A DNA stretch of 64,000 bases from Anaerolineaceae bacterium. GTDB lineage: Bacteria; Chloroflexota; Anaerolineae; Anaerolineales; Anaerolineaceae. Made by a program: the position numbers and the translations under genes. Position 1 is the stretch's first letter, and each line of letters opens with the position of its first letter. The notes under the pieces are model-generated. The model saw only the letters and a program-made list of their open reading frames with translations. It did not search any database and was not told the origin of the DNA. Of this stretch, positions 1,759 to 63,526 are shown in pieces. The stretch spans positions 1-64,000 of the forward strand of contig JAGPFF010000006.1 in assembly GCA_018056725.1 (NCBI GenBank), read 5' to 3'.

Positions 1759-1863
1759 TTTATTGCTCCTGCAAGGGGATGGACGGAAGGAATTCCGTCA
1801 GGGTGAAAAAAACACTGTTAATAAAACACTGATGCATCTTTTTGGATGCACATGCAAGAAATT

Positions 1864-1905
1864 ATACCCCAGGGTATTCCAAAGCGGACGAGCCTTCGGT
1901 ACAAT
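1864..1905 (+). promoter_or_regulatory. Dyad and -10 box upstream of the acyltransferase
   Basis: A 6-2-6 inverted repeat (ATACCC CA GGGTAT, 1864-1877) lies just upstream of a -10-like TACAAT (1900-1905). The ATG at 1915 is only 9 nt downstream and has no ribosome-binding site, so the transcript would be nearly leaderless. No good -35 box is visible. The dyad may be an operator shared with the divergent MFS gene; this is inference. Confidence 0.4.
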
Positions 1906-1914
1906 AGATGCTGC

Positions 1915-2859: not shown

Positions 2860-3737
2860 GGCGCTGGTTTTTCCATCTGGCAAAAAGGGGCTCTCTATGG
2901 CTTCTTGCCCTGCTGCTGACGGGCTGTGGGATGCGCCCTGCGCCCCTCCCGGTTCTATCGCCCACCCCCACCCGCACGCCCACCCGCACACCTGTTCCCA
3001 CCTCCACCCCGCTCCCCACACCGCCCCCATGCGACCGTTCCAGCGGCGGGCAGGTGACCCGCTCCTCGCTTGACTCCGCCTTGCTGGGGCTGACCTATAC
3101 CGTGAGCATTTACACCCCGCCCTGTTATGGCAAGGAAGAGGGCAGGGAATACCCGGTGCTCTACCTGCTGCACGGGCAAGGCATGGATGACACCTACTGG
3201 CTGAGCCTGGGGGCTGCCGAGATTGCGGATGAACTGATTGCCAATGGAGCGGAGCCTTTTTTGATGGTGCTGCCGCGGGAAGTGAACGATTATGACCCGG
3301 TGACCGATGATGGCTTCGGCGCCTCGGTGTTGAATGAATTGATCCCCTGGGTGGAAGCCAACTATACTGTCTGCACGCAGCGGGCTTGCCGCGCCATTGG
3401 TGGAATTTCACGCGGAGGGGGCTGGGCGGTGCGCCTGGCAGCGCGCAACTTCGATGTCTTTGGTGCTGTTGGTGCCCATTCGATGGGCTTGATGGCGGGC
3501 GACTGGTGGCAGATTCAGAAGCATCTTGAGACGCATACCGTGGACGAGTATCCGCGCATCTGGGTGGACCGCGGCGAGGACGACTATCTGTATGCGGATA
3601 TTGATTTCTTCGTCAGTGTGCTGGTGGATAACGGCATTCCGCACGAGTTTCACATCTGGTCTGGCGCGCACAATGGCGACTACTGGCAGGCGCATGTGCG
3701 AGATTATCTCACGTGGTACGCCCAGGGGTGGAAATAA
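2856..3737 (+). CDS. Secreted lipoprotein esterase (esterase D/FrmB-type alpha/beta hydrolase)
   Basis: A 293-residue lipoprotein. The GTG at 2856 overlaps the previous stop (GTGA) and has GGAGGG 9 nt upstream, which decides the start. A signal peptide ends in lipobox LLTGC (Cys24), followed by a Pro/Thr-rich linker (to about 60) typical of anchored surface proteins. The rest is a putative-esterase fold: nucleophile elbow GISRGG with Ser185, an acidic residue in the GEDD region (about 237-240) and His272 in the SGAHNG segment form the likely catalytic triad. It presumably hydrolyses acyl or aryl esters outside the cell. Coupling to an acyltransferase hints at envelope-lipid or glycolipid work, but the substrate is not known. 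Confidence 0.8.
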   Translation: MRRWFFHLAKRGSLWLLALLLTGCGMRPAPLPVLSPTPTRTPTRTPVPTSTPLPTPPPCDRSSGGQVTRSSLDSALLGLTYTVSIYTPPCYGKEEGREYPVLYLLHGQGMDDTYWLSLGAAEIADELIANGAEPFLMVLPREVNDYDPVTDDGFGASVLNELIPWVEANYTVCTQRACRAIGGISRGGGWAVRLAARNFDVFGAVGAHSMGLMAGDWWQIQKHLETHTVDEYPRIWVDRGEDDYLYADIDFFVSVLVDNGIPHEFHIWSGAHNGDYWQAHVRDYLTWYAQGWK

Positions 3738-3740
3738 GGG

Positions 3741-4421
3741 CTATTCCTGCTCGCATTCTGAGTGGTAATCCACCAGACCTTCACCCACGGCGTAGACTGC
3801 GGCTTCAATACGATTTTTCAGGTGCAATTTTTCCATAATGTTTTGCAAATGAGTTTTTACTGTGCTCGGCGAAATGGACAAGGACTGGGCAATTTTTTTA
3901 TTATCTTCACCCCGAACCAGATGTTGGAGCACTTCGATCTCCCTCTCCGTCAGGGGTTCAATTTCTCTGGATTTTTCGTGTGATTCCGAGAGACGGCTGA
4001 ATTCCCGTAAAATTTTTGTTGCCAGTACACCGTTGATGACAGCCTCACCCTGCTGAATTTTCTCAAGAGTGGAAAAAAGATCCGCGGGCTCGAGATTTTT
4101 TAAGAGGTAACCCGATGCGCCAGATTTTATCGCCTCAAAGAGCGCACTGTCATAGTCAGAGACAGTCAACATGATAATACTTGTTTGCGGGAATTCCTTT
4201 TTGATCAACCGCGTGGCTTCAAGCCCGTTTACTTTGGGCATATCAATATCCATAAATATCACATCCGGTCTGGTAAGTTTTGTCATTTCAATGGCATCAC
4301 AACCATTACCAGCTTCACCAATCACCTGAAACTCCGCATGGGTTTCGATTAATGACCGCACACCTTTACGGAAGAGTGGATGATCGTCCACCAGCAAAAT
4401 CCGAAGAGTTTGAGTTTTCAT
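3741..4421 (-). CDS. NarL/LuxR-family response regulator
   Basis: A 226-residue two-component regulator. The receiver domain (1-125) has the acidic pair Asp12-Asp13, phospho-acceptor Asp58 in the FMDIDMP segment, a Thr in IIMLTVSD (about 86) and Lys in GYLLKN (about 108). The C-terminal LuxR-type helix-turn-helix (about 155-215) contains LTEREIEVLQ and the recognition helix SPSTVKTHL. It sits 4 bp after the histidine kinase gene and is clearly its partner. The kinase/regulator pair is divergent from the flavoprotein genes at 6237, and a perfect 20-bp palindrome lies in between (6050-6069), so it may control its own operon, the flavoprotein operon, or both. Confidence 0.93.
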   Translation of the reverse strand: MKTQTLRILLVDDHPLFRKGVRSLIETHAEFQVIGEAGNGCDAIEMTKLTRPDVIFMDIDMPKVNGLEATRLIKKEFPQTSIIMLTVSDYDSALFEAIKSGASGYLLKNLEPADLFSTLEKIQQGEAVINGVLATKILREFSRLSESHEKSREIEPLTEREIEVLQHLVRGEDNKKIAQSLSISPSTVKTHLQNIMEKLHLKNRIEAAVYAVGEGLVDYHSECEQE

Positions 4422-6236: not shown

Positions 6237-8162
6237 ATGAGCAAGAAACGAGGAATTGAACAGCCCAGTAATCCTCCCGAGATAAGTGCCACGAAGATTT
6301 CGAGGAGAAAATTTTTGGGGACGGTTGCCGGTACCAGAGCGGCTTTGACGGTAACCGGTCTGCTCTCTGGTTGCAAGTCTGAAACCGGGCAGCAGGCGAA
6401 TGTGACCCCGGATGTACAGGTTGGCATCACTGCCACCGGAGTTGAAAGACCTTACGCAGTTTACGAATCGGATGTACTGATCATCGGTGGAGGAATTGCG
6501 GGTCTCTTTGCGGCAAAAGAAGCCCTGAAAGGTGGGGCGAGTGTAATTATTGTAGACAAAGGACCCTTTGGACATAGCGGCACCTCGGGCATTAACTGGG
6601 GGCATGATATGGAGTCCAACGAATTTTCTTCAGATGATGGTTCTGGAACTTTGAGTTCCAGTATTTGGTTAAATGATGGCATGGTTGACCAGGATTATGA
6701 TGTTGCTCTTGCCCAGGCTGTGCATGAAGCGAGACCGATTGCCACAAATGAACAAATGGGAAACATTGCTGAACGAGATCAAGAAGGAGAGCCGATTTCA
6801 AAAAATACAGACGCTCCGCTTGTTGTGGACCATGGGTGTTTCCCAAGAGCCTTCAGCCAGTTTGCCCGACGGCAAGGCGCAAGAATCTTTGATCGGACAA
6901 TGGTAAATGGCGTGTTGATTTCTGATAAAGGGGAAGCTGCAGGCGCTGTGGCAATCAACCTGGTTACCGGAGATGCAATTGTCTTCCGCGCGAAGTCAGT
7001 AGTAATGGCTACCGGTTCATACGCCTGGTGTTATGGGTGGACGGGTAATACAGCCTGCACTATTGCAGGACCTGAAAATACCGGAGACGGTCACTCGATG
7101 TTTCTTAACCTGGGTCTTGAGATGCGGGATATGGAACAATTACCGTTCGACTGCGTCCAGATTTACCCCACCTCAACGGCTTACGGCATGGGCACGCTCG
7201 GTCTTTCTGTTGTAAACCATCAGTACGCTCTTAATAAGAACAAGGAACGTTATACCCAAATCATGGACGAAAAATACCCGGGGCACAATGCGATCTTCAT
7301 GCGCCTCACGATGCGGGAAATCTTTAACGGCAGAGGACTTGATAATGGCTGCGTTTTGTTCGATACCTCGGATCTGGATAAGCTGAACCGGTATTATCGC
7401 CGTGCCCGGACACGAAACCGCATGATTGGTTATGAACTCCCCGATTTAGCAGAATTGCATTGGGAATTCTGGGAGAATGCCTCCCGTCCGGCTGCGGTTA
7501 GTACCACAGGCGAAACGCAAATTCCCGGTCTTTTCTATGCGGCTTCCAATACCCAAGCGTATTCTGGCTGTGCATTTTTTGGCGCTACCGGTTCGGGTTA
7601 CATGGCTGGAAAGAATGCGGCAATAAGGGCGAAGGAAGTGGAGCGTCCGACGATTGTTTGGAGCCAGGTGCAGGAAGCGCTAAACGATGCTTATGGCAAA
7701 TTGGAAAGTACACCCGAGAAAGGCGTCCGGGCGTTGTCAATCTACCACAAGATTCAGCAAACAATGTGGAATGGGCTTTCTCCTCTACGGGATGAAAAAG
7801 GCATTCAGGGAGTAATCGATGCCCTTACTGAAATTAAAGAAAAAGATTTCCCGACGATCTCGGTTCCGGTCAAGAGCAGACGGTTTAACTCAGACTGGCG
7901 CTATGCGATGGAAATTCCATATATGTGGGATTGTGTCATGGGAACCGCCCAGGCTGCCATCATCCGCAAGGAAACCCGCGGAACACATTGCCGCACGGAT
8001 TATCCAAATATGGATAATGCCAACTAGCTGGTGAACACAATTGTTCAGAAGAAAGATGGACAGTGGACGGCAGTTACCCGACCAATTGTCGATACTTTTG
8101 TCCCGGCTGATCAGGTTGCCCAAATCGTAGCCGAAATTGGTATTGCAGACCAGGCAAATTAG
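6237..8162 (+). CDS. Tat-exported FAD-dependent oxidoreductase (fumarate reductase flavoprotein-like), frame interrupted by an amber codon
   Basis: Flavoprotein subunit of the succinate dehydrogenase/fumarate reductase superfamily. An AAGGAGG site precedes the ATG. A twin-arginine signal (SRRKFLG, Arg23-Arg24) ends in LLSGC (Cys46), suggesting a Tat-exported lipoprotein. The FAD-binding GGGIAG lies at 84-89 and a GHSGTSG segment follows. The classic HPT catalytic motif is replaced by QIYPTS, so the substrate is probably not fumarate. Conventional calling ends at the TAG at 8025-8027 (596 aa), but the frame continues 44 codons to a second TAG at 8160-8162. The amber falls where the family has Trp in a conserved NWL segment, and the continuation is protein-like. 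It may be a nonsense mutation, a sequencing error or readthrough. The Fe-S subunit follows after 20 bp. Confidence 0.85.
8025..8027 (+). other. In-frame amber codon at a conserved Trp position
   Basis: TAG between NMDNAN and LVNTIVQKKDGQW. A single G-to-A change from TGG would explain it. The remaining 44 codons stay open and resemble the conserved tail of the family. Confidence 0.8.
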
Positions 8163-8182
8163 GCAAAAACTAGGAGAACACA

Positions 8183-8893
8183 ATGGCTGACCAAATTGTA
8201 ACTATAAAAATGTTCCGGTACGACCCAAGTGTGGATACGGAGCCGTACTTTAAAACTTATGAAGTCCCGTGGAAGGAATACACCACCGCCCTGGAGTGTC
8301 TGCATTACATCAATGAGAATATTGAACCAATCGGGTTTGATTATTGCTGCCGCAGCAGCCTGTGCGGGCGTTGCTCAATTATGGTAGACGGGCGACCCTT
8401 CCTGGCGTGTGTAAAGCCGTTGGATCCGGGAGAATATACCTTTGAACCACTAAAAGGCTTCCCTGTGATTCGAGATCTTGTCGTGGATCATAGCCAAATT
8501 ATGGAGAAAATTGTAGCCACCGGTCTTGCTGTGCAATCTGTGGAACCAATTGTAAAGTTACAAAACATCCCGTATGATCTTTATTGGAATACGCTTGAGC
8601 CTTTGAACATGTGCCGGGATTGCTTATGTTGTTATACTGTCTGCCCACCGTTACAGGAAGAAAACAAGTGGGAATCCTTTATTGGACCCTCCGCCATGGC
8701 ACAGGTTGCGAAGCGTTTCGTGGATCCGGAAGATCAGGCAGACCGAGTCACGCAGGCAGCCTTTTCGGGCATTTTTGACTGTACCCTGTGCGGGAAATGC
8801 TCCGCTGTTTGCCCGGCGGAAATTCCACACGTACAGCTCTTCACATTGCTGCAACAGGAGGCTGAGAAGGCGGGTCTTAAACCCAGTGCTTGA
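8183..8893 (+). CDS. Iron-sulfur subunit of the flavoprotein oxidoreductase (FrdB/SdhB-like)
   Basis: A 236-residue electron-transfer subunit. The N-terminal plant-type ferredoxin domain binds [2Fe-2S] with Cys56, Cys61, Cys64 and Cys76. The C-terminal part has two CxxCxxCxxxCP motifs (Cys144/147/150/154 and Cys200/203/206/210), each with four cysteines. SdhB/FrdB usually has one such [4Fe-4S] motif and one [3Fe-4S] motif lacking a ligand, so the cluster content may differ. AGGAGA precedes the ATG. There is no signal peptide, so it would be exported folded together with the Tat flavoprotein or act inside the cell. No membrane-anchor subunit follows; electrons must come from another quinol or ferredoxin partner, which is not seen. 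Confidence 0.88.
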   Translation: MADQIVTIKMFRYDPSVDTEPYFKTYEVPWKEYTTALECLHYINENIEPIGFDYCCRSSLCGRCSIMVDGRPFLACVKPLDPGEYTFEPLKGFPVIRDLVVDHSQIMEKIVATGLAVQSVEPIVKLQNIPYDLYWNTLEPLNMCRDCLCCYTVCPPLQEENKWESFIGPSAMAQVAKRFVDPEDQADRVTQAAFSGIFDCTLCGKCSAVCPAEIPHVQLFTLLQQEAEKAGLKPSA

Positions 8894-8948
8894 GGTAAAA
8901 CGATGGATTGCGGATTTATTTCTCCTCAACCCCGCTATCCATTGGAAT

Positions 8949-8994
8949 CTCTTCCAGAGGTGACTTCATAGGTAGAAGTTTGCCTCTGGAAGAG
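8949..8994 (+). terminator. Hairpin downstream of the Fe-S subunit gene
   Basis: Perfect 12-bp inverted repeat (8949-8960 with 8983-8994) around a 22-nt loop, without a T-tract. It is the first of two stem-loops between convergent genes. Confidence 0.4.
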
Positions 8995-9018
8995 GAAGAA
9001 TCCTGTCTATAGAAATCA

Positions 9019-9045
9019 AGCGGAGCCTGGCTGCCAGGCTCCGCT
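9019..9045. terminator. Bidirectional terminator between convergent genes
   Basis: Perfect 12-bp G+C-rich stem (AGCGGAGCCTGG, 3-nt loop, then its complement) followed by GCTTTAAAT. It separates the Fe-S subunit gene from the convergent peptidase gene. Confidence 0.65.
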
Positions 9046-9064
9046 GCTTTAAATCTCTCAGTAT

Positions 9065-11524
9065 TTACGGTATGGCATCCACTCTAAAAATACCCACTTC
9101 AGACCAGGGTCCTTTATAGCCTGAAGCGTCGATTGCCCGCACGCGCCAGAAGTACTTTCCATCCGGCAGCTTGAGTGACCAGGAGGTCTCAGGGATGATC
9201 GTGCGATGGAGCACCAGCAGGAAGGTCTTGTCCTTTGCTACCTGCACTTTGTAGGTTACGCCGTTCACCACGGACTGCCAGGCAAGGGTGGGGGTATCCA
9301 GGTTCAGCGTCACCCGGTAGCCTGGAATGGTTAACGCCGGCGGGGTAAGGGCATCCATCGAATTAAACTTCCACACCGGCGACCAGTCGCGCCAGGAGCC
9401 TGACACTTTTGCCCGCATGCGCCAGTAATAGACGTTTGGCGTGGTCAGTGGCACATCATAGACATAACTGGAATCGGTTACTCTGACGTCTTTCAAGAGA
9501 GAGGTGAAGGTACTGGTCGTTGAGAGTTGCAGTTGGTAACGCCCAGCGTTGGGGATGTCACTCCAGTCAAAGGTCACCGTGCTGGTGGTCATCTTCTCAT
9601 TCTTCAGCGGCGAGATCGCCAGTATGGAAAAATTGCTGGCAGTCGATTCACCACCGCCGGGTTCGGGATTGAACACGGTCACCTGGGCATTCCCCGCAGT
9701 GGCAAGATCTGCCGCGCTGATGCTGGCGCTAAGCGTGGTTGGGTTGACGTAGGTTGTCGGTCGGTCGCTGCCATTCCACCGCACCACCGATTCGGGGAAG
9801 AATCCGCTCCCGTTGAGGGTTAGTGAGAAATCAACCGCGCCGGCGTGCTTCAGGGAGGGTGTGAGCAGGCTGATGGTGGGCAGCGGATACTCCGCCGGAC
9901 CAATGAGGGTGAAGCGCATGGCTCCGAAGGAGAGATTGCGCGCGGCTTTGGTTTCTCCGGTAACATCACTCAAAGTAACGAAGCCGGTTTTTCCAGCGTC
10001 AAAAGAATATTCGCCCAGGTTGAGCCATTCATCGTTTAGCGGGAGCTGGTCGCGCACCACTTCCGTCACAGTATCCTTGGCGGAGTGCACCACATAGTTT
10101 GCCTGGGAACTGTCAGCTCCGAAGGTCAGGGTACTTGCTGAACAGGCTTTGCTGAAAGTGCCGTGCGCGGCAATGTAGGCTTCCACTTTGTAGCGCCCGG
10201 CGGCGGGCAGTTCGGGCGTCCAGTCGCCCTGGTTGGCGGAGTCAGCAGCGATTTCCACATTTTCCACCAGATAATTGGGGAAACCGCTGAAGCCACGGAT
10301 GGGGTACCAGCGAGTCTTACAGGGGTTATTGTTGTACTCCGGGGTGAGCGTGGGCTGGCAGACGTAGGTTTGGGTGGAGGTGGAAGCCGGGCAGGAGGGG
10401 GGCTCCTTCGTTGGTCCGTGATAAATGCGCATCCCTTTGAAAGTGTTGCCGTAGGAAGCCAGGGTGGTGCGCGAAGAATAATAGGGATCATTAATGTAAT
10501 AGGTATCTCCGTAATAGCCGGTGGCAACGACAAAATGCTGCCCGTTGCTGAAGGGCACTTCCAGGATGACTGGATAACCACTATCCAGTTCGTAACGCAG
10601 CCGCGCCCAGTCAGCCCCATTTACCCAGGCTACCCAGGTCAATTTATCCGGTGCCATGTTGGCAGCGGTCGACCAGTTGATCAGACAGCCGGCAGCGTAG
10701 CCATTATTTGACTTGAGCCAGTTGTTCATCCCCAGCGGGTCGGTATCAATGCCAAAGTATTTGAACACCATGGCCGTGGATGAAATCGCGCAGCCCTGTT
10801 GGCAAATGGTATATTGCGAGCAGGTGCCCAGAACTTTACTTCCCCAGCGGCTGTCACATTGCGAGTAATACGGCACTTCTGCCGGTAGGGCAGCGGCATC
10901 CGCGGTTTTGGGCACCCCTTTGCTGATTTCGGCAGTGGTTTCCAGGGATTGGATGTCCACCGTGTAGTACACAATGGGGAAGGCTTCGTTATTGGGGTAT
11001 TGGATGCGGGTGTCGGATACCCACTTGATGTCGGCGGTGCCGTCAAAACGGATGGAGGGGTTAAAGGCAGCCGAATCGGTGATCAGGCGGTTTTGAGCGG
11101 TCTTCAAGTCATAAACCCACAATTCGTAGCTTGAGGCGATTTCGTAATCGCTCACCTTTCCATTGACCACGCGCACGTATGCCAGAGTCTTGCCATCCGG
11201 AGACCAGATGGGATTGGTGACCCAGGAGGTATCATCCCCTTCCGCCAGCACCTTAACATCCTTGGAGTCAGCGCGGGTGAGGGTAATGGCAGAGCCGTGC
11301 ATCCCGGGGTCGGCAGCACTGAGGGCGGCAGTATATTTGCCATCGGGTGAGGGCTGCTCAAAACCGGCGATGCTTTCGCCGGGGGTAAAAGGCGCAGGGG
11401 TGGGAGTGGTTTCGCTCCAGTGGGGCAGGGCATTCTGCTGCAGCAGCAACCCGCCGCCTACCAGCAGCACCATCAGCGTCAACAGTAAAAAAGGCAGAAA
11501 TCTTTGCAAAGGAGAAGTTCCCAT
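9065..11524 (-). CDS. Membrane-anchored secreted C39-like peptidase with beta-propeller and carbohydrate-binding-type modules
   Basis: An 819-residue extracellular protein. One N-terminal membrane segment (about 10-30) is followed by a TolB-like propeller part (about 50-200, with WSPDGKTLAYVR-type repeats), a peptidase C39-like domain (about 215-375: Cys in GCAISSTAMVF, His in GQHFVVATGYY, then NDPYY), a golvesin/Xly-like beta domain (about 400-530), an IPT/TIG-like domain (about 545-640) and fibronectin-III-like modules to the end. The cysteine-protease residues look intact, so it may process or bind peptides at the surface. The C-terminal modules closely resemble those of the next gene (shared FWRVRAIDASG). 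The ribosome-binding site is weak. Exact substrates are unknown. Confidence 0.75.
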   Translation of the reverse strand: MGTSPLQRFLPFLLLTLMVLLVGGGLLLQQNALPHWSETTPTPAPFTPGESIAGFEQPSPDGKYTAALSAADPGMHGSAITLTRADSKDVKVLAEGDDTSWVTNPIWSPDGKTLAYVRVVNGKVSDYEIASSYELWVYDLKTAQNRLITDSAAFNPSIRFDGTADIKWVSDTRIQYPNNEAFPIVYYTVDIQSLETTAEISKGVPKTADAAALPAEVPYYSQCDSRWGSKVLGTCSQYTICQQGCAISSTAMVFKYFGIDTDPLGMNNWLKSNNGYAAGCLINWSTAANMAPDKLTWVAWVNGADWARLRYELDSGYPVILEVPFSNGQHFVVATGYYGDTYYINDPYYSSRTTLASYGNTFKGMRIYHGPTKEPPSCPASTSTQTYVCQPTLTPEYNNNPCKTRWYPIRGFSGFPNYLVENVEIAADSANQGDWTPELPAAGRYKVEAYIAAHGTFSKACSASTLTFGADSSQANYVVHSAKDTVTEVVRDQLPLNDEWLNLGEYSFDAGKTGFVTLSDVTGETKAARNLSFGAMRFTLIGPAEYPLPTISLLTPSLKHAGAVDFSLTLNGSGFFPESVVRWNGSDRPTTYVNPTTLSASISAADLATAGNAQVTVFNPEPGGGESTASNFSILAISPLKNEKMTTSTVTFDWSDIPNAGRYQLQLSTTSTFTSLLKDVRVTDSSYVYDVPLTTPNVYYWRMRAKVSGSWRDWSPVWKFNSMDALTPPALTIPGYRVTLNLDTPTLAWQSVVNGVTYKVQVAKDKTFLLVLHRTIIPETSWSLKLPDGKYFWRVRAIDASGYKGPWSEVGIFRVDAIP

Positions 11525-51489: not shown

Positions 51490-54400
51490 ATGAAAACCAA
51501 GCTGCAATTCTTGCCAGCCCTGCTCGGCTGTGTGCTCATTTTTTGTCTGCTTTGCCCCCAACCCGGGCAGGGGGCTCAAATCCCCACCACCATCACGCTT
51601 TCTCCCTCTTCGGATGTTCCAGGCACGGAAGTAGTGGTGACCGGAAAAGGTTGGTGGTCAAATATTGCTCCACCGCCATTTGAAATTCACTGGAATAAAC
51701 CGGACGGAAAAATTTTGGGCACGTTTAAACCCGACGCAAGCGGCAACTGGAGCACCAGAATCATCATTCCTGAAACAGCCCAGACCGGCGACCATGAGAT
51801 TTGGGCTTGTGCGGGCTGTAATTCGAAACCTCTTTGGGCAGCCGCCATCTTTAAAGTCATTCTCCTGCCCACTCCCACACTTACTCGAACCCCGCCCAGC
51901 ACCCCAACCCCCACCTTAACCCCTCTGCCTCCAACCGATTGTGACGCCACTGGAATGGAAGGGGAACTGGTGATTGATTTTGAACGCTTCGAGTTGGGGT
52001 TGAACCTGAAAGACCTGATGATCCCGGAGGGAATCCTCTTCTCTTCAGATCAAAGCCTCATCGTCGTGGAACCTGTAGTGGAAACTCACTCGGGTGAGAA
52101 GGCGCTTAGAGCCGCCGGAGCAATGGAGTTCGGCAGCCAGGGGCTGCCGGTTCATCTGGAGTTCACCCGGCTGCCGGATTTCGTGGGCGTTTATGTGGGG
52201 CTGGACGAGGCGGCAAATTTTAACCAACCCTTTACCGCGAGCATGAAAGCCTACGGGATGACTGAAACCGGAGAGCGCTACTTTATCGGCGAGGATTCAG
52301 TCACTTTGGGCACGGACCCTGAAGCGGTGAAAAAATGCCTCAGCGTCAGTGGTTCACGTATTTATGAGGTGTTTATTGATTATGAACGGGTAGGTAACCT
52401 TGAGTTGATGGATGACTTCATCTTGCGCGGTCCGCTGGACCGCCCCACGATACCGGTGGACGATCTGCCCCCCCGGGTTTTCATTGAGACACCTGAGAAC
52501 AACAGTAAAGTTGCACCTCCCGCGGTGAAGGTGCAGGGTGAGATCTATGAAGAACGCGAGATTGTCAAAGTGGAATTCATCGTCAATGATGAGCTCTTTA
52601 TTACCAGCGGCGCTTTCAGCCTCGGCGAAGGACCGGAGGGGTGGAAAAAGTTTGGTTTTTTGCTGAATGGCATTCCTCCTGCTCAATTTAAGGAATGTAT
52701 CAACGTGATTGAAGTGCGCGCCTACGATAAAGCGAATAACATGGGTCGGGATTACGTTAACGTTCGGAATGAGATGGGTACACTTTCGATAGAAAACGTG
52801 GAACCGGTGCAGGTGCTTTACAATGCGCCACTGGTAAAAGGGAAGGGGACAGCCTTCCGCACCACCTTTACTTCTGAAGTATTCTGCGAGACGGAAGTGT
52901 CCTTTAAGTTAAACCTGCCGGAAAATATGTGGAGCCGTGAACCGCTCTCCGGACAGAGAATTGGCATCGTGTATTCAGTGCCATTCGGCTGGCAAATCCC
53001 TGAAATCACCCTTCCGCTTTCTTTACCCATCGGCTACCAACACCTTGAAGTGATGCTTCCCATCGTGCCGGATGGAATGGAAAACTCAGATTGGATGGCG
53101 AGCACCAATCCGGCGGGGCTGCTGGGTACAGTGCGGCAGGTTCCGCGACCCATTGCCGATCAGGTGCATTTCAGCGTGGAAATTGACCCGGAAAATAAGA
53201 TCCTGGAAATGAATGAAGGGGATAACACCTTCACTTCGCCCATGTATGATGTCGTTACCACTCGTCCGTTCAAAGTGGTTTATGTTCCCTGGTTTTTTAA
53301 CTTTGAGCCGCCGGCGTGGGAAACCCTTTCCTATTATGAGTATTACCTCACTTACGCCGGGTACCCCGATGTGGACGCTAAGATGAAAGATGTGCACAAC
53401 TCACTGTATGAAGGAAAAGTGCCATTGCGGTTAGCGCTCAAAGCGGAAGAAATCCAACGGATGAAGAATACCACTGATCAGTTTGGCGAGCTCTTCCTGG
53501 GAAGCTTCCCGATTGCGGACGGGAAGTACAGCTACAGTTTCGAAAGTTCCTATCTTTACTTCAGGGAAGATTATTATGAAGCCATCGGAGTGACTGATTT
53601 ATGCGACTCACGCACTTTCATCCTCGATGTGCGTGAAGACATTCTTGAAGCGGACCCCAGTGTGGATTATGTCATTCTCGAATTGCCGACAGGCTGCTGC
53701 GGACAGTCGCATCCTGAAACCGCTTATGTGGATGGTGGCATTGGTCTCGATAATGGAGGAATCGATTGGCTTCATTATTGTGTCTATCCTCCGCCCGATC
53801 CAGAAAATACCTCCACACCGACCCCCGGTCCGGATAAATTCCCATTTGGTGGTGCCGGAGTGGACTCGGTCATTCACGAATCCGCCCATGTATGGAATGA
53901 CGCCACAGACTGTTATGGTTGCGAAAGAGGCAACCCGCCGGATACAACGCTCGATTGCTCCACCTGTTCAACCGATGAGGATGGATTTTGGGTAAACGGT
54001 TGGCGACCTTTTTATAGCAGCACGCAATCTTTTATGTGGTACGTCAAACCTGTAGTGATCCGCTGGTGGCGGATGGAGCCTATGGCGCATACGTCCGGCA
54101 GTCTTTACGGCGATGGGTACTTGAATATGGTGGAGGCTTTTGAAGACGTGGATGACCCGCAGGTGCTGCTGGTCAAAGGATCGGTAACCCGTTCCGGTCA
54201 GGCATCCTTGGGTTCCTTCAAAATCCTTGAAAACGGGCGCCCGGATAACCCCCCGGGAGCGGAAGGGGACTATGCCTTTGTCTTGAAAGATGCTGCCGGG
54301 AAGGAACTCTCCCGTACCGGCTTTTACCCGATGTTTGAGATCAGTGACTCGCTTACCAATTCCATCATTCAGCTGGAAGAAGCTGGTTTTCTCCTGCGCC

Positions 54401-54906
54401 TGCCGTGGGATCCGGCAACGCGGAAAATTGAACTGCAGGACAGGGAAGGCAAAGTGCTTGCGGAACGATCCGTTTCCGTCCATCCCCCGCAGGTGACGAT
54501 TCTGCAACCGGCTGCCGGGGTGACCCTGCCGCAGAATGGGAAGTTATCCGTGGAATGGACGACCAGCGACGCGGATGGCGATGCGGTGCTTTCCTCCGTC
54601 CATTTCAGCCAGGATAATGGTGAGAGCTGGGATGCCGCAGGGACCAACCTGACCGAAACCCGCTTCTCCCTGCCGCTGGCACTCTTCCAGCCTGGAGATC
54701 AGGTACTGATCCGGGTGATGGTGACGGATGGGGTGAACACCAGCATGACCGTGGCGGCGAACCCCGTGCTGATTGCCGCCCCGCAGGAAGAGGTTCCCTC
54801 CATCAAGCAGGGTCTGATCCTTTACTACGCCGCTGCCGCCGTGCTGGTGCTGGTCATTCTGATTGCATTGCTGCTACTGCGCCGCCGGAAGAAGGGGCAG
54901 AAGTAG
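51490..54906 (+). CDS. Large secreted cell-surface protein with zinc-metalloprotease motif
   Basis: An 1138-residue surface protein. A signal peptide (about 1-30) is followed by an IPT/TIG- or Ig-like domain (about 32-125), a Pro/Thr linker (about 128-150, LPTPTLTRTPPSTPTPTLTP), further beta domains (about 155-430), CARDB-like segments (about 430-590), a part with HESAH at 796-800 (the HExxH zinc motif, in SVIHESAHVWND), a Cys-rich patch just after it (CYGCERG...CSTCST) and a C-terminal Ig-like module, transmembrane segment (about 1108-1130) and RRRKK stop-transfer. The catalytic domain resembles M64/M6-like metalloproteases only in the motif, and no third ligand was identified by eye. Likely a cell-wall-anchored protease or adhesin. 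Confidence 0.6.
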   Translation: MKTKLQFLPALLGCVLIFCLLCPQPGQGAQIPTTITLSPSSDVPGTEVVVTGKGWWSNIAPPPFEIHWNKPDGKILGTFKPDASGNWSTRIIIPETAQTGDHEIWACAGCNSKPLWAAAIFKVILLPTPTLTRTPPSTPTPTLTPLPPTDCDATGMEGELVIDFERFELGLNLKDLMIPEGILFSSDQSLIVVEPVVETHSGEKALRAAGAMEFGSQGLPVHLEFTRLPDFVGVYVGLDEAANFNQPFTASMKAYGMTETGERYFIGEDSVTLGTDPEAVKKCLSVSGSRIYEVFIDYERVGNLELMDDFILRGPLDRPTIPVDDLPPRVFIETPENNSKVAPPAVKVQGEIYEEREIVKVEFIVNDELFITSGAFSLGEGPEGWKKFGFLLNGIPPAQFKECINVIEVRAYDKANNMGRDYVNVRNEMGTLSIENVEPVQVLYNAPLVKGKGTAFRTTFTSEVFCETEVSFKLNLPENMWSREPLSGQRIGIVYSVPFGWQIPEITLPLSLPIGYQHLEVMLPIVPDGMENSDWMASTNPAGLLGTVRQVPRPIADQVHFSVEIDPENKILEMNEGDNTFTSPMYDVVTTRPFKVVYVPWFFNFEPPAWETLSYYEYYLTYAGYPDVDAKMKDVHNSLYEGKVPLRLALKAEEIQRMKNTTDQFGELFLGSFPIADGKYSYSFESSYLYFREDYYEAIGVTDLCDSRTFILDVREDILEADPSVDYVILELPTGCCGQSHPETAYVDGGIGLDNGGIDWLHYCVYPPPDPENTSTPTPGPDKFPFGGAGVDSVIHESAHVWNDATDCYGCERGNPPDTTLDCSTCSTDEDGFWVNGWRPFYSSTQSFMWYVKPVVIRWWRMEPMAHTSGSLYGDGYLNMVEAFEDVDDPQVLLVKGSVTRSGQASLGSFKILENGRPDNPPGAEGDYAFVLKDAAGKELSRTGFYPMFEISDSLTNSIIQLEEAGFLLRLPWDPATRKIELQDREGKVLAERSVSVHPPQVTILQPAAGVTLPQNGKLSVEWTTSDADGDAVLSSVHFSQDNGESWDAAGTNLTETRFSLPLALFQPGDQVLIRVMVTDGVNTSMTVAANPVLIAAPQEEVPSIKQGLILYYAAAAVLVLVILIALLLLRRRKKGQK

Positions 54907-56021: not shown

Positions 56022-57083
56022 TTATTTTTCTCCATTTTGCCGCTCTTTTCCCCGTTTTTCCCCCTGACCCAGCCGTACCCCCTCATTGGCAATATTGTTT
56101 TCTTCCACGTAGCGCCGCGGCATCGCCAGCGAGGACCATCCGCCAGCTTCCTGCAGCACAAAAGGATCGGTTCCGTGTCGTGCCGCTGAGGTTGCCCAGT
56201 AGTGGCGGCAGTCATGGGCGGAAAGACCGGCGATGCCCAGGCGCTCGCCCAGCAGGCGCACCCGTGCCGTTACCGCGCGGGCGGTCATGCCCGCAGTGCC
56301 GAGTTCCTCATTCTTCATGCTGCGCCGCAGCAGCAAGCCCGCGGTCACAAATTCGCCATGGGTTTGGCAGGCGGTTGCCGCGGCAAGCGTGTCGTCCGTC
56401 AGGCGGTGAACCTGCTCTTTGTTCACCTTGGGGCGGTAAAAGCGCAGCACCCCTTCTTCCAGGTTTAGATCACCCACCGCCAGACCGGTCACCTCGCCCA
56501 CGCGCAGCCCGTGATCCAGCAGCAGACACATCAACAGACGGTCGCGCCGCCCCTGCGGGGTGGCTGGCTGATTCTTCAACCCGCGGGCATCCGCCGGGGT
56601 CAGTTTGACCGGCTCCTGCTTTTTGAAGCCGATGCGCCTGACAGAGCGCTTCTGGTCAATACGCACCTGCTCGCGGTAAGAATAGCCCTGCACCGCCCGG
56701 ATGAGCGCGTACTCCTGCGGGGTAAGGGCGCCGGATTGCATCGCCATGCGGGCGTACGTTTTTACCGTGGAGAGGCGCACGTTGATGCTCTTGATCGCGT
56801 AGCCCTCATTGAGCTGCCACTTGACGAAGGCTTCCACCAGCCCCCAGGTCACCGGGCGCCAGGCTTGCGCCTCCAAAGAAAGATTGCCGGTGCGCAGGTT
56901 GACGAACTCAAGAAACTCGTGGAAGAGCGCCAGATCGGCGTCCTGCCGGCGCAGCGTTTCCGGGGCGCGGCGGGATCGGTAGTCGTTGAAGCGGGTCTGC
57001 GCCGCGGCGCGATTCGCCTGATCACCGATTTGCTGGGCGAGCTCTCCGGGCAGCAGGGGCTGGATCTCTTTTGGGGATGCCAT
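56022..57083 (-). CDS. Tyrosine recombinase/integrase family protein
   Basis: A 353-residue tyrosine recombinase with an N-terminal SAM-like/core-binding part (about 40-140) and a C-terminal catalytic domain. Catalytic residues are visible: Arg in HGLRVGEVTGL, Lys in RPKVNKEQVHRL, the HxxR box in AHDCRHYWAT, the His/Trp position in GGWSS and the nucleophile Tyr in RRYVEENN. It should cut and rejoin DNA at specific sites. No prophage, integron attI or tRNA attachment site was found nearby, so it is an isolated integrase, possibly a XerC/D-like or mobile-element relic. The start at 57083 is chosen because a -10-like TACAAT lies 7 nt upstream (leaderless). Confidence 0.85.
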   Translation of the reverse strand: MASPKEIQPLLPGELAQQIGDQANRAAAQTRFNDYRSRRAPETLRRQDADLALFHEFLEFVNLRTGNLSLEAQAWRPVTWGLVEAFVKWQLNEGYAIKSINVRLSTVKTYARMAMQSGALTPQEYALIRAVQGYSYREQVRIDQKRSVRRIGFKKQEPVKLTPADARGLKNQPATPQGRRDRLLMCLLLDHGLRVGEVTGLAVGDLNLEEGVLRFYRPKVNKEQVHRLTDDTLAAATACQTHGEFVTAGLLLRRSMKNEELGTAGMTARAVTARVRLLGERLGIAGLSAHDCRHYWATSAARHGTDPFVLQEAGGWSSLAMPRRYVEENNIANEGVRLGQGEKRGKERQNGEK

Positions 57084-57529
57084 AAAAATCATTGTACACG
57101 AAATCACTTTCCATAAAACGTGGAATCCCATGCCGGAATGCGAAACCGTGGAAAGAGAAAATTCCTTACAGAATTGTTAGGGAAATCAAAAATTTGCCAG
57201 TTGTATTTCAAAAAAAGCAATTGTATACTCTTTAAATTATACGGTTTTTCAAAAGTGATTCTGCAACTGACACGGTCGGAACTGATCTCCTGCCGTTTTC
57301 ACTGAAAATCCGGGATGTAAAACAGGCATCGGTTTTTTTCTGGCATTGAACCCGTTAAAACCAGAGCGGAGCAGGATGAAAACCTCTCCATATTGCAGAA
57401 ACAGGGATGAAAATTTTGATTTGATCTCTGTATAATGAAAGAACATCTTCATTCCAACTTTCTGCCAGATCTTTATTCGTAACGATTTTGAGTTTTAGAG
57501 TTCAGAGTTAGCATTCAATGGAGCCATTC
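57084..57529. other. Intergenic region between integrase and peptide ABC operon
   Basis: A+T-rich spacer without a gene. A TATAAT (57431-57436) is the likely -10 of the dpp operon, giving a leader of roughly 90 nt; no clear -35. No attachment site was recognised next to the integrase. Confidence 0.4.
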
Positions 57530-58564
57530 ATGAATGATCGGTTAGACGTACAAACAGGTGCAAACATTCTTGAAGTCCGCGATCTGAAGACTTATTTTTT
57601 TACTGAAGACGGCGTGGTGAAGGCTGTGGATGGAGTAGATTTCTCCGTCCGCGCCGGTGAAGTGCTGGGTCTGGTTGGCGAATCGGGCTGCGGCAAGAGC
57701 GTCAGTTCGTTTTCAATTCTCAGGCTGGTTGGAGAGCCGGGCAAAATTGTCAACGGTGAGATTTATTTTGAAGGCAAAGACATCCTCAAACTTTCCAAAG
57801 ATGAGATGGTGAAAATGCGCGGCGACCGCATTTCCATGATCTTCCAGCAGCCACAATCCAGCCTTAACCCGGTCTTCAAGGTTGGGGAGCAGGTGGCAGA
57901 AGTTTTGGAACTGCATAAAGGGATCCATAAAAAGGAATCCTGGGCAAAAGCCGTGGAGCTGCTCACTCAGGTTGGCATTCCAGATCCTGAAAAGAAAGCC
58001 CACGCTTACCCGCATGAACTTTCGGGTGGGCAGGCGCAGCGGGTGATGATTGCCATGGCGCTCGCGCTTTCACCGCGCCTGTTGATTGCTGATGAGCCCA
58101 CCACCGCCCTGGATGTTACCATTCAGGCGCAGATTCTTGATCTGATCCGCGAGTTGAGCGAAAGGACCAATACCGCGGTCATTCTGATCACTCATGACCT
58201 CGGTATTATTGCTGAGATGGCGAACCGCGTGGCGGTGATGTATGCTGGCGAGATCGTGGAGTTTGCCGATGTGGATCCCATCTTTGAGCGCCCGCTGCAT
58301 CCTTACACCCAGGGGCTGCTCGGTTCGATCCCGGTATTGGGCAGCGTGGTTGACCGCCTGGAAGTGATCCCTGGACTGGTGCCCAACCTGATTGATCTGC
58401 CCCCTGGCTGCCGGTTTGAGCCGCGCTGCCAGCTGCGCCAGCAGTTCGGGCTGGAGGTTTGCAAACGCAAGGAACCACAACTTGTGGAAGTGGCACCCAA
58501 TCACACCGTGCGCTGCTGGTTGTACAACGATTCTGACGAGCACAGCGCGCCATTAAAGGTATGA
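57530..58564 (+). CDS. dppD: Dipeptide/oligopeptide ABC transporter ATPase DppD/OppD
   Basis: A 344-residue ATPase. Walker A is [23 protein letters not shown] (about 48-70), the signature [18 protein letters not shown] (about 163-180) and Walker [20 protein letters not shown] (about 184-202). The C-terminal oligopeptide-transporter domain contains the family's Cys pattern ([22 protein letters not shown]). GGAG 6 nt upstream favours the ATG at 57530 over 57518. It is the first gene of dppD-dppF-dppA-dppB-dppC and energises peptide import with DppF. Confidence 0.92.
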
Positions 58565-58573
58565 CGAGGCGAT

Positions 58574-59572
58574 ATGAGCGAGACATTACTCACCAATCCA
58601 GCTAAAGAGGCGGAAGACCTGCTTGTCGTCCGCAACCTTAAGAAATATTACCCGGTCAAATCCGGTGTACTGCAGCGCGTCACCGACCACGTGCTGGCGG
58701 TTGACGATGTGAGCTTTACCGTAAAACAAGGGGAGACGCTCGGTCTGGTAGGGGAGAGCGGCTGCGGAAAAACCACCATCGGTCGCGCCATCCTGCGGCT
58801 TACCGAGCCTACCGCCGGTTCGGTGGAATTTGATCATCAGGATCTGTTGAAACTGCGTGGTAATGACCTCAAAGCCGTCCGCCGTGACATGCAGATCATC
58901 TTCCAGGATCCCTATGGTTCGCTCGACCCGCGCGTGCGCATTGGGGATTCCGTGATGGAAGGTCTCGAAATTCACAAAATTGGCAATAAGAAGGATCGTT
59001 ATCAGATGGCGGTGGAGACGCTCAAGAAAGTGGGTCTGGAGGAATATCACAGCCGCCGTTACCCGCATGAATTCTCCGGCGGGCAGCGCCAGCGCATTGG
59101 CATTGCCCGGGCTATTGCCCTCCGTCCGCGCTTTATCGTTTGCGATGAGCCCGTTTCAGCCCTGGATGTGTCCATCCAGTCGCAGGTGTTGAATATCCTC
59201 AAAGATTTGCAGGAGGAGTTTGGGCTGACCTATCTCTTCATCGCGCATAACCTTGGCGTGGTGGAACATATTTCCAACCGGGTGGCGGTGATGTACCTGG
59301 GCAAAATGGTGGAAATGGCGGGGCGGGAGGAACTTTTTGCTCACCCGTTGCACCCTTATACCAAAGCGCTCATGTCCGCCATCCCCATCCCCAACCCACG
59401 GCTGCGGCGGGAGCGGATCATTCTCAAGGGTGATGTGCCCAGCCCGCTGCACCCGCCAACCGGCTGCCGCTTTCACCCCCGCTGCCCGGTGGCAGTGGCG
59501 CAATGCGCGCAGAGCGAGCCGCCCTTCGTAGAGAAATCCCCCGGACATTCCGTGGCGTGCTGGCTAGCCTGA
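58574..59572 (+). CDS. dppF: Dipeptide/oligopeptide ABC transporter ATPase DppF/OppF
   Basis: A 332-residue partner ATPase of DppD. Walker A is [15 protein letters not shown] (about 59-73), the [15 protein letters not shown]-loop (about 102-115), signature [18 protein letters not shown] (about 161-178) and Walker [20 protein letters not shown] (about 183-201). The C-terminal oligopeptide domain has [15 protein letters not shown]. The ATG follows nine bases after the dppD stop. The next gene begins after 138 bp, leaving room for a separate promoter for the abundant binding protein. Confidence 0.93.
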
Positions 59573-59710: not shown

Positions 59711-61441
59711 ATGAAACGTCGTTCACTTGTATTGTTCAGTATTTTGTTAGTTGCCAGCCTAGTTCTGGCAGCCTGCGCCAAACCCGCGCCCACGCAAGCC
59801 CCGGCAACGGAAGCCCCCGCCGCGACCGAAGCCCCTGCGGCTACGGAAGCCCCGGCAAAGAATCCGTTGAAAATCACCCTCAGCTACCGTGTCGTTGACC
59901 GTGCCTACCTTCCTTCACCTGACAAGGTGGCGTAGGAGATTCAGGCACAGCTGGCTGAAGTGGGCATTGAGGTAACGCTGGAAGAGATGGAATCCGCCGC
60001 GTTCATTGATGCCACCGCCGCCGGTCAACGCGGGTTCTACCTGCTTGGTTGGAACGCAGACTATCCTGATGCCACCAACTTTTATGATTATCACTTTGCC
60101 AACAGCAATAACCTTCAGTTTGGCAACCTCTACCCGGATATGGTCGCCGAGATTCAGGCAGCCGCAAAACTGGCTGATCCTGATGAGCGCCAGGCGCACT
60201 ATGACAACGTCAATCAGATGTTAAAAGATTACCTGATGATGATCCCGGTTGCCAACGGTGGTTCTGCAACCGTTTTTGGGGCGAACGTGGAAGGTGCCCA
60301 TTCCAGCCCGCTCGGCAATGAAATCTTCAGTGTCATGTCCAATGGCAAAGATTCCTTCGTCTGGATGCAGAATGGCGAGCCCGCTGCTTTGTGGTGCTCA
60401 GATGAGACAGATGGCGAGACGCTGCGTGCTTGTGAGCAAATGTATGAAGCTCTCCTCGGCTTCAGTGTTGGTGGAACGGATGTAGTTCCCTCACTGGCAG
60501 AAAGCTACGCGCCGAATGCCGATCTCACGGAATACACCTTCACCCTCCGCCAGGGCGTCAAGTTCCACAATGGTGCCACGCTCGACGCGAATGACGTGGT
60601 TGCCACCTATGCCTCCTACTGGGATGCTGCCAGCCCCAACCATAAGGGACGCACCGGCACCTTTGAGTACTTCGGTGCCTTCTTTGGTTCCTTCCTCAAC
60701 GCCGAGTCGGTGGTTTCTGAACTGGTGGATACCAACGGTCTGCTCTCCCTGTCAGCGCCGGATTGTGAGTATGGTGGTGAGTTCAAGTCCATTGAGGCAG
60801 TCGATACCAGTACAGTCAAGTTCACCCTCTGCTACCCCGATCCCGCATTCCCCTCCAAGGTTGCCTTCTCCGTGTTCAGCATTTTGGATAAGGATCACCT
60901 CGATCTGACCCAGGGCGATTCGGTTGCCATTAGCGACAATCCCAATGGCACCGGTCCCTACAAGCTGGTGAAGTGGAACCGCGGCGACAGCGTGGTCTTT
61001 GAAGCCAACCCCGATTACTGGGGTGAGAAAGCCAAGACCCAGCAACTGATCTTCCGCTGGTCTGAGCAATCCGCCCAGCGCCTGCTTGAGCTTCAGTCTG
61101 CCAACGTCGACGGTATTGACAACCCCGGTCCGGATGATATTGCCTCCATTGAAGCGGATCCCAATCTTAAACTGTATCCGCGCAATGGTTTCAACATCTT
61201 CTACATCGGGTTTACCAACACCGTCCCGCCCTTTGATAATCTGACGGTTCGCCAGGCGATCACCTACGCCATCGACCGGCAGCGCATTGTTGACCAGTAC
61301 TATCCGGTGGGTTCCAGTGTTTCCGATAGCTTTGTGCCCGCATTTGTACACCCAGGCGCCAGCCCCGATATCCCGTGGTGGCCATACGATCCTGAAAAAG
61401 CCAAGGAATTGTTGGTTGAAGCCGGCTACACGGTAGATTAG
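59711..61441 (+). CDS. Circularly permuted peptide ABC transporter substrate-binding lipoprotein, frame interrupted by an amber codon
   Basis: A 577-codon frame of the SBP_bac_5 (DppA/OppA) family. AAGGAG precedes the ATG. The signal peptide ends in a lipobox (AAC, about Cys21), then a T/A/P linker (about 25-55). The order is then reversed relative to the family: residues about 56-208 (ITLSYRVVDRAYLPSPDKVA through the LLGWNADYPDATN and FANSNNLQF segments) are the usual C-terminal third, whereas about 210-576 begin with the usual N-terminus (ALWCSDETDGETLRACEQMYEALLGF, TFTLRQGVKFHNGATLDANDVV) and end in DPEKAKELLVEAGYTVD, which normally precedes the first block. Thus a circular permutation. 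A TAG at 59933-59935 (codon 75) interrupts the frame at a likely Gln. Confidence 0.85.
59933..59935 (+). other. In-frame amber codon in the binding-protein gene
   Basis: TAG inside DKVA-EIQAQLAEVG, where a Gln (CAG) or Glu is expected. One C-to-T change would make it. The frame stays open for another 501 codons. Confidence 0.85.
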
Positions 61442-61509: not shown

Positions 61510-62589
61510 ATGATGCCTCAATTTATTGCACGCCGTTTATTTCTCTTAATCCCGGTCATGCTTGGAGTGGTGCTCGTCACCTTCCTCATTGTCCGCCTCA
61601 TTCCGGGTGACCCGTGCGTCACCATGCTGGGGGAGCGCGCCACACCAGCCAAGTGTGCCGTTTTCCTGGAACGCTATGGACTGAATGATGACATCTTCAC
61701 CCAGTTCTGGCGTTATTTGGGCAACCTGTTTACCGGTGACCTGGGCGATTCCATCCGCTTCACCCGCCCGGTTACCACCCTCATTGCTGAACGCCTGCCG
61801 CTGACCATGGAGCTGACCCTGCTGGCAATGTTTTTCTCCACCACGGTGGGGGTGCTGCTGGGAGTGGTTTCAGCGCTTAAACGCAATACCATCATTGACA
61901 CGATTACCATGATCATTGCCAATATCGGTGTATCGATGCCGGTTTTCTGGCTGGGGCTGCTGCTGGCTTATTTCTTTGCCCTCACCCTCAAAGGTACGCC
62001 GTTTGTCCTTCCTCCTTCAGGCAGATTTTCCGCCGGGCTTTCCCCGATTAATCTCGCCGAGTTCTGGGGGCTTGAAGCTCCCACCGGGCTCAAGGGATTC
62101 CTGGTGGAATTCATGTCGAACACTGTGTTTATTAATGTAATCATCACCGGAGACTGGAAACTCTTCTGGGATGCGCTGCGCCATCTCATCCTGCCGGCGG
62201 TGGCTGTGGGGACCATTCCGATGTCGATCATCGCCCGCATGACCCGCTCCAGCCTGCTAGAGGTGGTGGGTCTGGATTACATCCGCGCCGCCCGCGCCAA
62301 AGGGATGACCGAGCGCCGGGTGATCAGCAAACATGCCATGAGGAATGCCCTCATTCCCATCGTGACGATCATCGGCATTGAGACCGGCAGTTTGCTCTCA
62401 GGCGCGGTGCTGACGGAAACTGTGTTCAACCTGCCTGGTTTTGGTACCAGTCTTGTCTCTGCCATTCTGGCGCGCGATTACCCGGTGGTGCAGGGGTTCA
62501 CCCTCATCATTGCGATCATTTTTGTGCTCGTCAACCTGATTGTCGATATTTCATACGCCTACCTTGATCCACGCATCAGGTTGGAGTAG
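61510..62589 (+). CDS. dppB: Dipeptide/oligopeptide ABC transporter permease DppB
   Basis: A 359-residue inner-membrane permease with about six transmembrane segments. It has the usual N-terminal MPQFIARRLFLLIPVMLGVVLVTFLIVRLIPGDP, and the binding-protein-dependent transport signature with the EAA loop at VGLDYIRAARAKGMTERRVISKHAMRNALIPIV (about 255-287), plus TVFNLPGFGTSLVSAILARDYPVVQG. The start at 61510 is the preferred one; ATG 61513 is an alternative. Forms the channel with DppC, powered by DppD/DppF. Confidence 0.93.
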   Translation: MMPQFIARRLFLLIPVMLGVVLVTFLIVRLIPGDPCVTMLGERATPAKCAVFLERYGLNDDIFTQFWRYLGNLFTGDLGDSIRFTRPVTTLIAERLPLTMELTLLAMFFSTTVGVLLGVVSALKRNTIIDTITMIIANIGVSMPVFWLGLLLAYFFALTLKGTPFVLPPSGRFSAGLSPINLAEFWGLEAPTGLKGFLVEFMSNTVFINVIITGDWKLFWDALRHLILPAVAVGTIPMSIIARMTRSSLLEVVGLDYIRAARAKGMTERRVISKHAMRNALIPIVTIIGIETGSLLSGAVLTETVFNLPGFGTSLVSAILARDYPVVQGFTLIIAIIFVLVNLIVDISYAYLDPRIRLE

Positions 62590-62599
62590 GGGAGCCGCC

Positions 62600-63526
62600 A
62601 TGGAAACCACTAACGAACTACCTCAGGCTGCCAAAGCCCGGCGCCGCTCGCCCGCCGGGGAGGCGCTGCGCCACCTGCTCCGCCATAGTTCCGGCAGGGC
62701 AGGGATCATCATCCTCACTTTGCTGGTGCTGATTGCCATTTTCGCCCCGTTTATTGCCCCGTATAACCCCACGCAGATTCTCAAGGATCAGAAGCGCCGC
62801 GATCCACCCTGCGTGCATCTTCTTGGCTGCCCCAAAGAGGAGCAGCAGCATCTTTTTGGCATGGATAGCAACAGCCGCGATCTCTTTTCGCGGGTGATCT
62901 TTGGCTCCCGCCTCTCGCTGCAGGTGGGCGTTGCCACCATGGCGTTCGCCATTCTTATCGGCACGCTCATTGGCGCCATCTCGGCGTATGCCGGCGGCTG
63001 GTTGGATAACTTTCTGATGCGCACGATGGATGTGCTGATGGCTTTTCCGAGCCTGCTGCTGGCGATCGCCATTGTGTCCATTCTCGGCACCGGGCTGATC
63101 AATGCCCTGCTGGCAATCGGGATTGTCTCCATCCCCCGTTTTGCCCGTCTGGTGCGCTCCACCGTGCTCACCGTCAAGGACCTTGAGTTTGTGCAGGCGT
63201 CGCGTGCCATGGGGGCTTCAGGGATGCATATCCTCTTCAAGCGTATCCTGCCTAACGCCATAACCCCACTCATCGTTCAGGGCACACTGGGTATTGCCAC
63301 CGCCATTCTTGATGCCGCTGCGCTCTCCTTCCTTGGTCTGGGTGCTGAACCCCCGCGCCCCGAGTGGGGGTTGATGCTCGGCGAGGAAAAGAACAGTATT
63401 TTCAGCGCGCCGCACCTGGTGATCTTCCCTGGCATTGCCATTATGCTCACCGTTCTGGGCTTTAACCTGCTTGGCGATGGTCTGCGCGATACCCTTGATC
63501 CGCGCCTCACGCGGGCTGGGAAGTAA
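62600..63526 (+). CDS. dppC: Dipeptide/oligopeptide ABC transporter permease DppC
   Basis: A 308-residue permease with about six transmembrane segments. An OppC-type N-terminal region (FAPFIAPYNPTQI), the GMDSNSRDLFSRVIFGSRLSLQVGV segment (about 90-114) and the EAA loop EFVQASRAMGASGMHILFKRILPNAI (about 198-223) fit DppC. It ends with LNLLGDGLRDTLDPRL, the normal family tail. GGGGAG before the ATG at 62600 decides the start over 62540. Last gene of the operon; a terminator follows. Confidence 0.93.
   Translation: METTNELPQAAKARRRSPAGEALRHLLRHSSGRAGIIILTLLVLIAIFAPFIAPYNPTQILKDQKRRDPPCVHLLGCPKEEQQHLFGMDSNSRDLFSRVIFGSRLSLQVGVATMAFAILIGTLIGAISAYAGGWLDNFLMRTMDVLMAFPSLLLAIAIVSILGTGLINALLAIGIVSIPRFARLVRSTVLTVKDLEFVQASRAMGASGMHILFKRILPNAITPLIVQGTLGIATAILDAAALSFLGLGAEPPRPEWGLMLGEEKNSIFSAPHLVIFPGIAIMLTVLGFNLLGDGLRDTLDPRLTRAGK

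Follow-up and report, generated by a model that had tools for sequence, protein, structure and literature searches.

In E. coli DppA (1DPP), a substrate-binding protein of SBP_bac_5 cluster C, R383 and D436 hold the ends of the dipeptide, and E41/R42 belong to the scoop loop of the permease DppB, a loop that contacts these residues (PMC12136057). Here a DppA/SBP_bac_5 protein is divided into a first (N), a middle (M) and a last part (C), which stand in the order N-M-C in canonical members. We analysed a window of 64,000 nucleotides from an Anaerolineaceae bacterium (assembly GCA_018056725.1, contig JAGPFF010000006.1, positions 1 to 64,000, forward strand), and one protein encoded in it shares with DppA the homology of all three blocks, the predicted fold, dppBCDF partners and the dipeptide-contact Arg and Asp. 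It differs from DppA in that its order is C-N-M rather than N-M-C, its termini lie in another loop, and it has an extra N|M junction; it also scores far under the cut-off of the NCBIfam DppA equivalog NF043070 (window protein 185 bits, its relative L038 204 bits, cut-off 1005 bits).

Natural circular permutants are numerous (PMC3320104). The permutations of saposin/swaposin and of DNA methyltransferases have been explained, as is proposed here, by duplication and trimming, in folds unrelated to that of the window protein; under this model tandem copies fuse and outer parts are lost, with fission-fusion and cut-and-paste as recognised alternatives (PMC3320104). Nearer in function is TpMglB-2 (Tp0684), which represents a circularly permuted glucose-binding protein family ('Cluster Bc') and, like the window protein, is an ABC substrate-binding lipoprotein whose permutation is natural and occurs in the native system; its authors suggested that the permutation was an adaptation to membrane anchoring (PMC4990184). 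TpMglB-2 has a cluster B sugar-binding fold and one permutation, and its permuted part is about 13% identical to its counterpart (PMC4990184), whereas the window family belongs to cluster C, was probably permuted twice in succession, shows high identity and has its orthologues at a single operon position. Among the open-access PMC papers searched, none was found to describe a permuted binding protein of cluster C, or one from Chloroflexota. What is new here is a cluster C binding protein that was most likely permuted in series and of which all three cyclic orders are extant.

The gene (59711-61441) reads signal-C-N-M with one in-frame TAG, as judged from the sequence, Pfam and relatives; it and the features of its operon given below lie on the plus strand. 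A ribosome-binding-like AAGGAG stands directly 5' of its lipoprotein signal peptide (59711-59776), which ends at the lipobox Cys22 (LAAC) and is followed by a low-complexity linker (APTQAPATEAPAATEAP...; 59777-59869) with low pLDDT where the mature chain begins. The C block, the canonical C-terminal third of DppA, comes next (59870-60349, residues 54-213; Pfam, phmmer and block alignment), and the N block, the canonical N-terminal part, is joined directly to it (60350-60703, residues 214-331; Pfam, phmmer and structure alignment). An N|M junction delimited by comparison with relatives (60704-60784) holds the scar-like segment LLSLSAPDCEYGGEF and, with the limits given here, extends into the beginning of the M block. 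The M block, the canonical middle of DppA, is here C-terminal (60743-61429, residues 345-573; Pfam, phmmer and structure alignment) and terminates in DPEKAKELLVEAGYTVD-stop.

The window protein matched the SBP_bac_5 profile (PF00496) at 8.5e-81 and 272 bits, against a Pfam cut-off of 32.4. The match fell in two rotated stretches, residues 175-491 of a 493-aa piece corresponding to profile positions 2-279, plus a second stretch; the single collinear N-M-C stretch seen in the canonical members L060 and L055 was absent. Similarly, phmmer aligned 164-498 with 34-347 of HbpA, and 2-131 with 375-507. The results showed that the rotated match is far above chance level, and that the gene has the marks of a circular permutant: blocks cyclically rotated, old termini joined and new ones opened. 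The earlier note, made from the letters of this DNA, had described a lipoprotein signal, the C-terminal third first, the N part from about residue 214 and the middle segment last, and the sequence, Pfam and phmmer agree with that description. It had also held that joining the end to the start restores the usual order without gap or overlap, which is true of the M-to-C join and not of the N-to-M join; the latter carries extra sequence and, measured from the DVV to the AVD motif, spans 67 residues in C-N-M proteins versus 25-42 in the canonical proteins compared.

AlphaFold, run on the window protein with the TAG read as Gln and a 63-row alignment, predicted a confident cluster C fold (pLDDT 89.8, pTM 0.87). 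The structural comparison with DppA proposed earlier gave, by sequential alignment, a match in rotated order over the N-M part only, residues 193-555 of the model corresponding to 1-343 of DppA (Z 28.8, 2.4 A, 332 residues). A model of an M-C-N relative, of moderate confidence (pLDDT 72.7, pTM 0.70), matched DppA 121-507 with its residues 34-415 (Z 28.2, 7.0 A, 378 residues), and the two models, aligned sequentially, complement each other in the parts of DppA that they match. The fold of the C block was assigned from sequence homology together with the M-C-N model. On these models, the window protein is predicted to adopt the two-lobe DppA fold. The 50 structural matches listed were of the cluster C type with no cluster B protein among them, the list being Foldseek's own matches, from which a family could be missed; the sequence of the window protein is SBP_bac_5, and the TpMglB-2-like Cluster Bc has a cluster B sugar-binding fold with a permuted N lobe.

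Alignment placed Arg64 (59900-59902) at E. coli DppA R383 (mature R355) and Asp117 (60059-60061) at D436 (mature D408), the residues with the dipeptide-end contact role (PMC12136057), indicating that both the Arg and the Asp of the dipeptide-type site are conserved. The scoop-loop residues E41/R42 are retained in the DppB encoded in the window. From the sequence and the models we infer an ordinary DppA-like mechanism, in which the lipid-anchored protein would fold into the usual two-lobe cluster C shape, close on a peptide, dock on DppBC and deliver its load to DppBCDF.

The gene has dppB, dppC, dppD and dppF as neighbours, as in a Dpp/Opp importer operon. It is preceded by dppD-like and dppF-like ATPase genes (57518-58564 and 58574-59572, each with ABC_tran and oligo_HPY; Pfam and synteny) and followed by genes for a dppB-like permease (61513-62589; Pfam), with E41/R42 positioned as in the DppB scoop loop (PMC12136057), and a dppC-like permease (62600-63526; Pfam and synteny). 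The arrangement dppD-dppF-[C-N-M]-dppB-dppC recurs in G008, G003, G009, L038 and L039, and dppD-dppF-[M-C-N]-dppB-dppC occurs in G014, from the window's genus, and G041, from its family. This common arrangement indicates that the C-N-M and M-C-N genes occupy corresponding genome positions. Directly upstream of the operon, the window encodes a tyrosine recombinase (56022-57131, minus strand; Phage_integrase 7.7e-24). Elsewhere in the window, 51490-54906 (plus strand) encodes a secreted-looking protein of 1138 aa with a Big_7 bacterial Ig domain towards the C-terminal end, where there is also a hydrophobic stretch.

The nearest relatives outside the window's genus are M-C-N proteins, in which a signal and linker are followed by M and then by C fused to N, with an end in ...FEYFGSFFGSFLNAPK-stop. 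Their carriers include the isolate Leptolinea tardivitalis (L040) and the one-contig genome G301, and in the nearer members the blocks are about 60-80% identical to those of the window protein. These Chloroflexota proteins share with the window gene the C-N fusion and, in some genomes, the operon position, but their chain opens between N and M, that of the window protein between M and C. The C-N fusion was found over its full span in about 37 of 301 Chloroflexota genomes from several classes, with a sharp gap in search scores from about 120 to 73 bits. Partial C-N matches in f70, G246 and G131, also Chloroflexota, were rejected, since wherever every block could be located the order was canonical N-M-C. 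The classified loci, some of them duplicates, comprise 78 M-C-N, 15 C-N-M (all in the window's genus) and 31 N-M-C, the last mostly from other phyla, with canonical N-M-C also present within Chloroflexota. The three cyclic orders N-M-C, M-C-N and C-N-M thus all exist today.

The product of the gene is very probably the lipid-anchored binding protein that serves a Dpp-type dipeptide/oligopeptide ABC importer, with a chain that has been circularly permuted twice. The view of the earlier note, a circularly permuted DppA-type binding protein within a dpp operon, is borne out by the order in relatives and the predicted structure. In the first rotation, from N-M-C to M-C-N, C would have been fused to N and new chain ends would have appeared between N and M, giving rise to the broad Chloroflexota family. 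The second, from M-C-N to C-N-M without a change of operon position, would have restored the link from N to M and placed the chain ends between M and C instead. The tethered end would have moved accordingly from the start of the N part in the canonical protein to the N/M loop in M-C-N and then to the start of the C-terminal third in C-N-M. A bolder reading, that the gene was rotated repeatedly in place with three orders all working in one phylum, and that the shifted lipid tether may alter the reach or docking of the protein on the permease, strikes us as rather improbable.

In each rotation the gene may have been duplicated in tandem, after which the copies fused and shed their outer parts; this is the favoured route, and tandem duplication with such losses was already proposed in the earlier note. 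Unfused tandem M-C-N pairs stand directly 5' of dppB in G021 (L212) and in L051, and such a pair already contains C1-N1-M2, which is the C-N-M order. A fused full duplicate, the expected intermediate, was not found among the genomes examined, which leaves some room for a second rotation through fission-fusion or through a cut-and-paste move of M: both are recognised alternatives, and an M segment moved together with its leader would give an identical junction. We consider this somewhat unlikely, given the tandem pairs adjoining dppB and the fact that separate M or C-N genes were not seen in the operons read.

The case for two rotations, by tandem duplication or otherwise, comes from phylogeny and from the junction. 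In a maximum-likelihood tree of the whole protein, for which all sequences were first rotated to N-M-C, the C-N-M proteins formed one clade (100/98) that was sister to the M-C-N protein of G014 (100/98) and lay deep inside M-C-N, with the permuted and canonical proteins split at 100/100. Separate trees agreed with it (M alone, 89/93; C+N alone, 99/97), and a chimera of two different paralogues is unsupported, M alone and C+N alone giving the same sister. At their N|M junction, C-N-M proteins carry a '(L)LSLxAPxCxYGGEF' segment, represented in the window protein by the segment named above, which resembles the mature N-terminus of M-C-N proteins; in M-C-N genes, '..APxCxYGGEF' comes after the leader. 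The nesting of C-N-M inside M-C-N and this leader-like segment together suggest that the window gene was permuted twice. The series N-M-C to M-C-N to C-N-M is the simplest and most likely reading of the sequences, the immediate ancestor of the window gene most likely being M-C-N already and C-N-M a second rotation in place; a comparison with DppA alone would thus conceal the true history.

A single rotation of canonical DppA would also yield C-N-M, and the deep root of the permuted family depends on distant outgroups. An origin straight from N-M-C, independent of M-C-N, is nevertheless very unlikely: C-N-M lies well inside M-C-N for the whole protein and for each part, it has the C-N fusion of M-C-N, its N|M junction is leader-like rather than a short canonical loop, and the operons of the two orders are alike. 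The permease tree (dppB+dppC) failed to reproduce the binding-protein tree cleanly at G014, which has the genus's sole M-C-N operon and fell within the C-N-M operons (95/85); an AU test did not reject a single C-N-M clade (p 0.12). This conflict may reflect recombination or weak signal. Also in G014, the gene in L178 (G014:C46) lacks about 26 codons at its M|C boundary and has a two-base N join (3808-3809) exactly there.

Natural circular permutations are in many cases known solely from distant protein pairs. The second rotation appears young, with the flanking operon, a sister gene of the older order, unfused tandem pairs and a leader-like junction remnant still readable, and these traces make it testable how permutations arise, by duplication or by fission. 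The three natural topologies of one fold could be used in experiments on folding, docking and membrane anchoring. Profile annotation labels the permuted proteins ordinary SBP_bac_5 and misses the rotation.

The frame 59711-61441 is interrupted at codon 75 by a TAG (59933-59935) that the earlier note had overlooked; in the seven C-N-M relatives compared, this codon is CAG or CAA, and 501 codons of the window gene are open from 59936 onward. Compared with C-N-M relatives, the window gene had a dN of 0.12-0.18, a dS of 1.3-2.5 and a dN/dS of about 0.07-0.1, and there was no excess of unique replacements (6 in the window row versus 6-12 in relatives). These values indicate purifying selection on the family, and a TAG that either arose recently and breaks the window copy or stems from an error in the consensus. 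Reassignment of the stop codon is unlikely given the CAG/CAA of the relatives and a second TAG that terminates the dppB frame of the window. The in-frame TAG might also mark the gene as a pseudogene with a block order that is merely a relic of decay, a notion made hardly credible by the long open frame, the low dN/dS, the ordinary number of replacements and the persistence of the C-N-M order, free of internal stops, in nine other genomes. Decay as the cause of the order itself is already excluded.

The earlier note had called for a search of related genomes and had allowed that homologues might reveal a misread two-protein arrangement. Using the 501-codon open part as query, we found the C-N-M order collinear, full-length or nearly so, in ten genomes of one genus, namely that of the window and nine others (76-83% identity, E 1e-248 to 1e-290, no stop within the match), the match in G006 being shorter (463 codons). 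Of 147 genomes from the family, a query spanning the N|M junction matched 10, every one in the window's genus, at 219-300 bits; the next row scored 133 bits, and such rows match M alone. The named metagenome assemblies L038 and L039 carry the same complete gene, with blocks identical to the genome loci L011 and L014, and are not additional witnesses. A two-gene arrangement is ruled out, as complete relatives carry one open frame of 584-613 aa. A Phyllobacterium plasmid match covering 98% of the query was rejected as C-N-M, as it spans a permease gene and a separate binding-protein gene.

That a misjoined or collapsed tandem repeat mimics the rotated order is practically untenable, even though the window and all named C-N-M loci come from draft metagenome assemblies, tandem binding-protein genes occur in the family and the C block of L054 passes into unrelated sequence, because the nine other genomes repeat the same order and the same junction in stop-free frames at 76-83% identity to the window, dppF and dppB flank the C-N-M gene wherever the context was read, and M-C-N is present in an isolate and in a one-contig genome. 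The block order is real. In L054 (3848-4294 onward), a C-N-M-like start follows dppF before the C block gives way to the unrelated sequence, and this gene may be a chimera of the assembly or may have been disrupted.

Three other observations concern M-C-N frames. The window's own genome holds a second, M-C-N paralogue (L179, G000:C7, about 7789-9333), about 28-47% identical by block and with dpp neighbours absent in the stretch read. In L051, from a Candidatus Aquidulcis MAG, a 942-codon frame (727-3552) combines a Ser/Thr protein kinase (39-247) with an M-C-N SBP_bac_5 part, possibly a kinase with a binding-protein sensor. In L133 (G185; 1489-3504, minus strand), the start of an M-C-N frame resembles, by eye, a binding protein of the branched-chain amino-acid type, as if two binding proteins had been fused.
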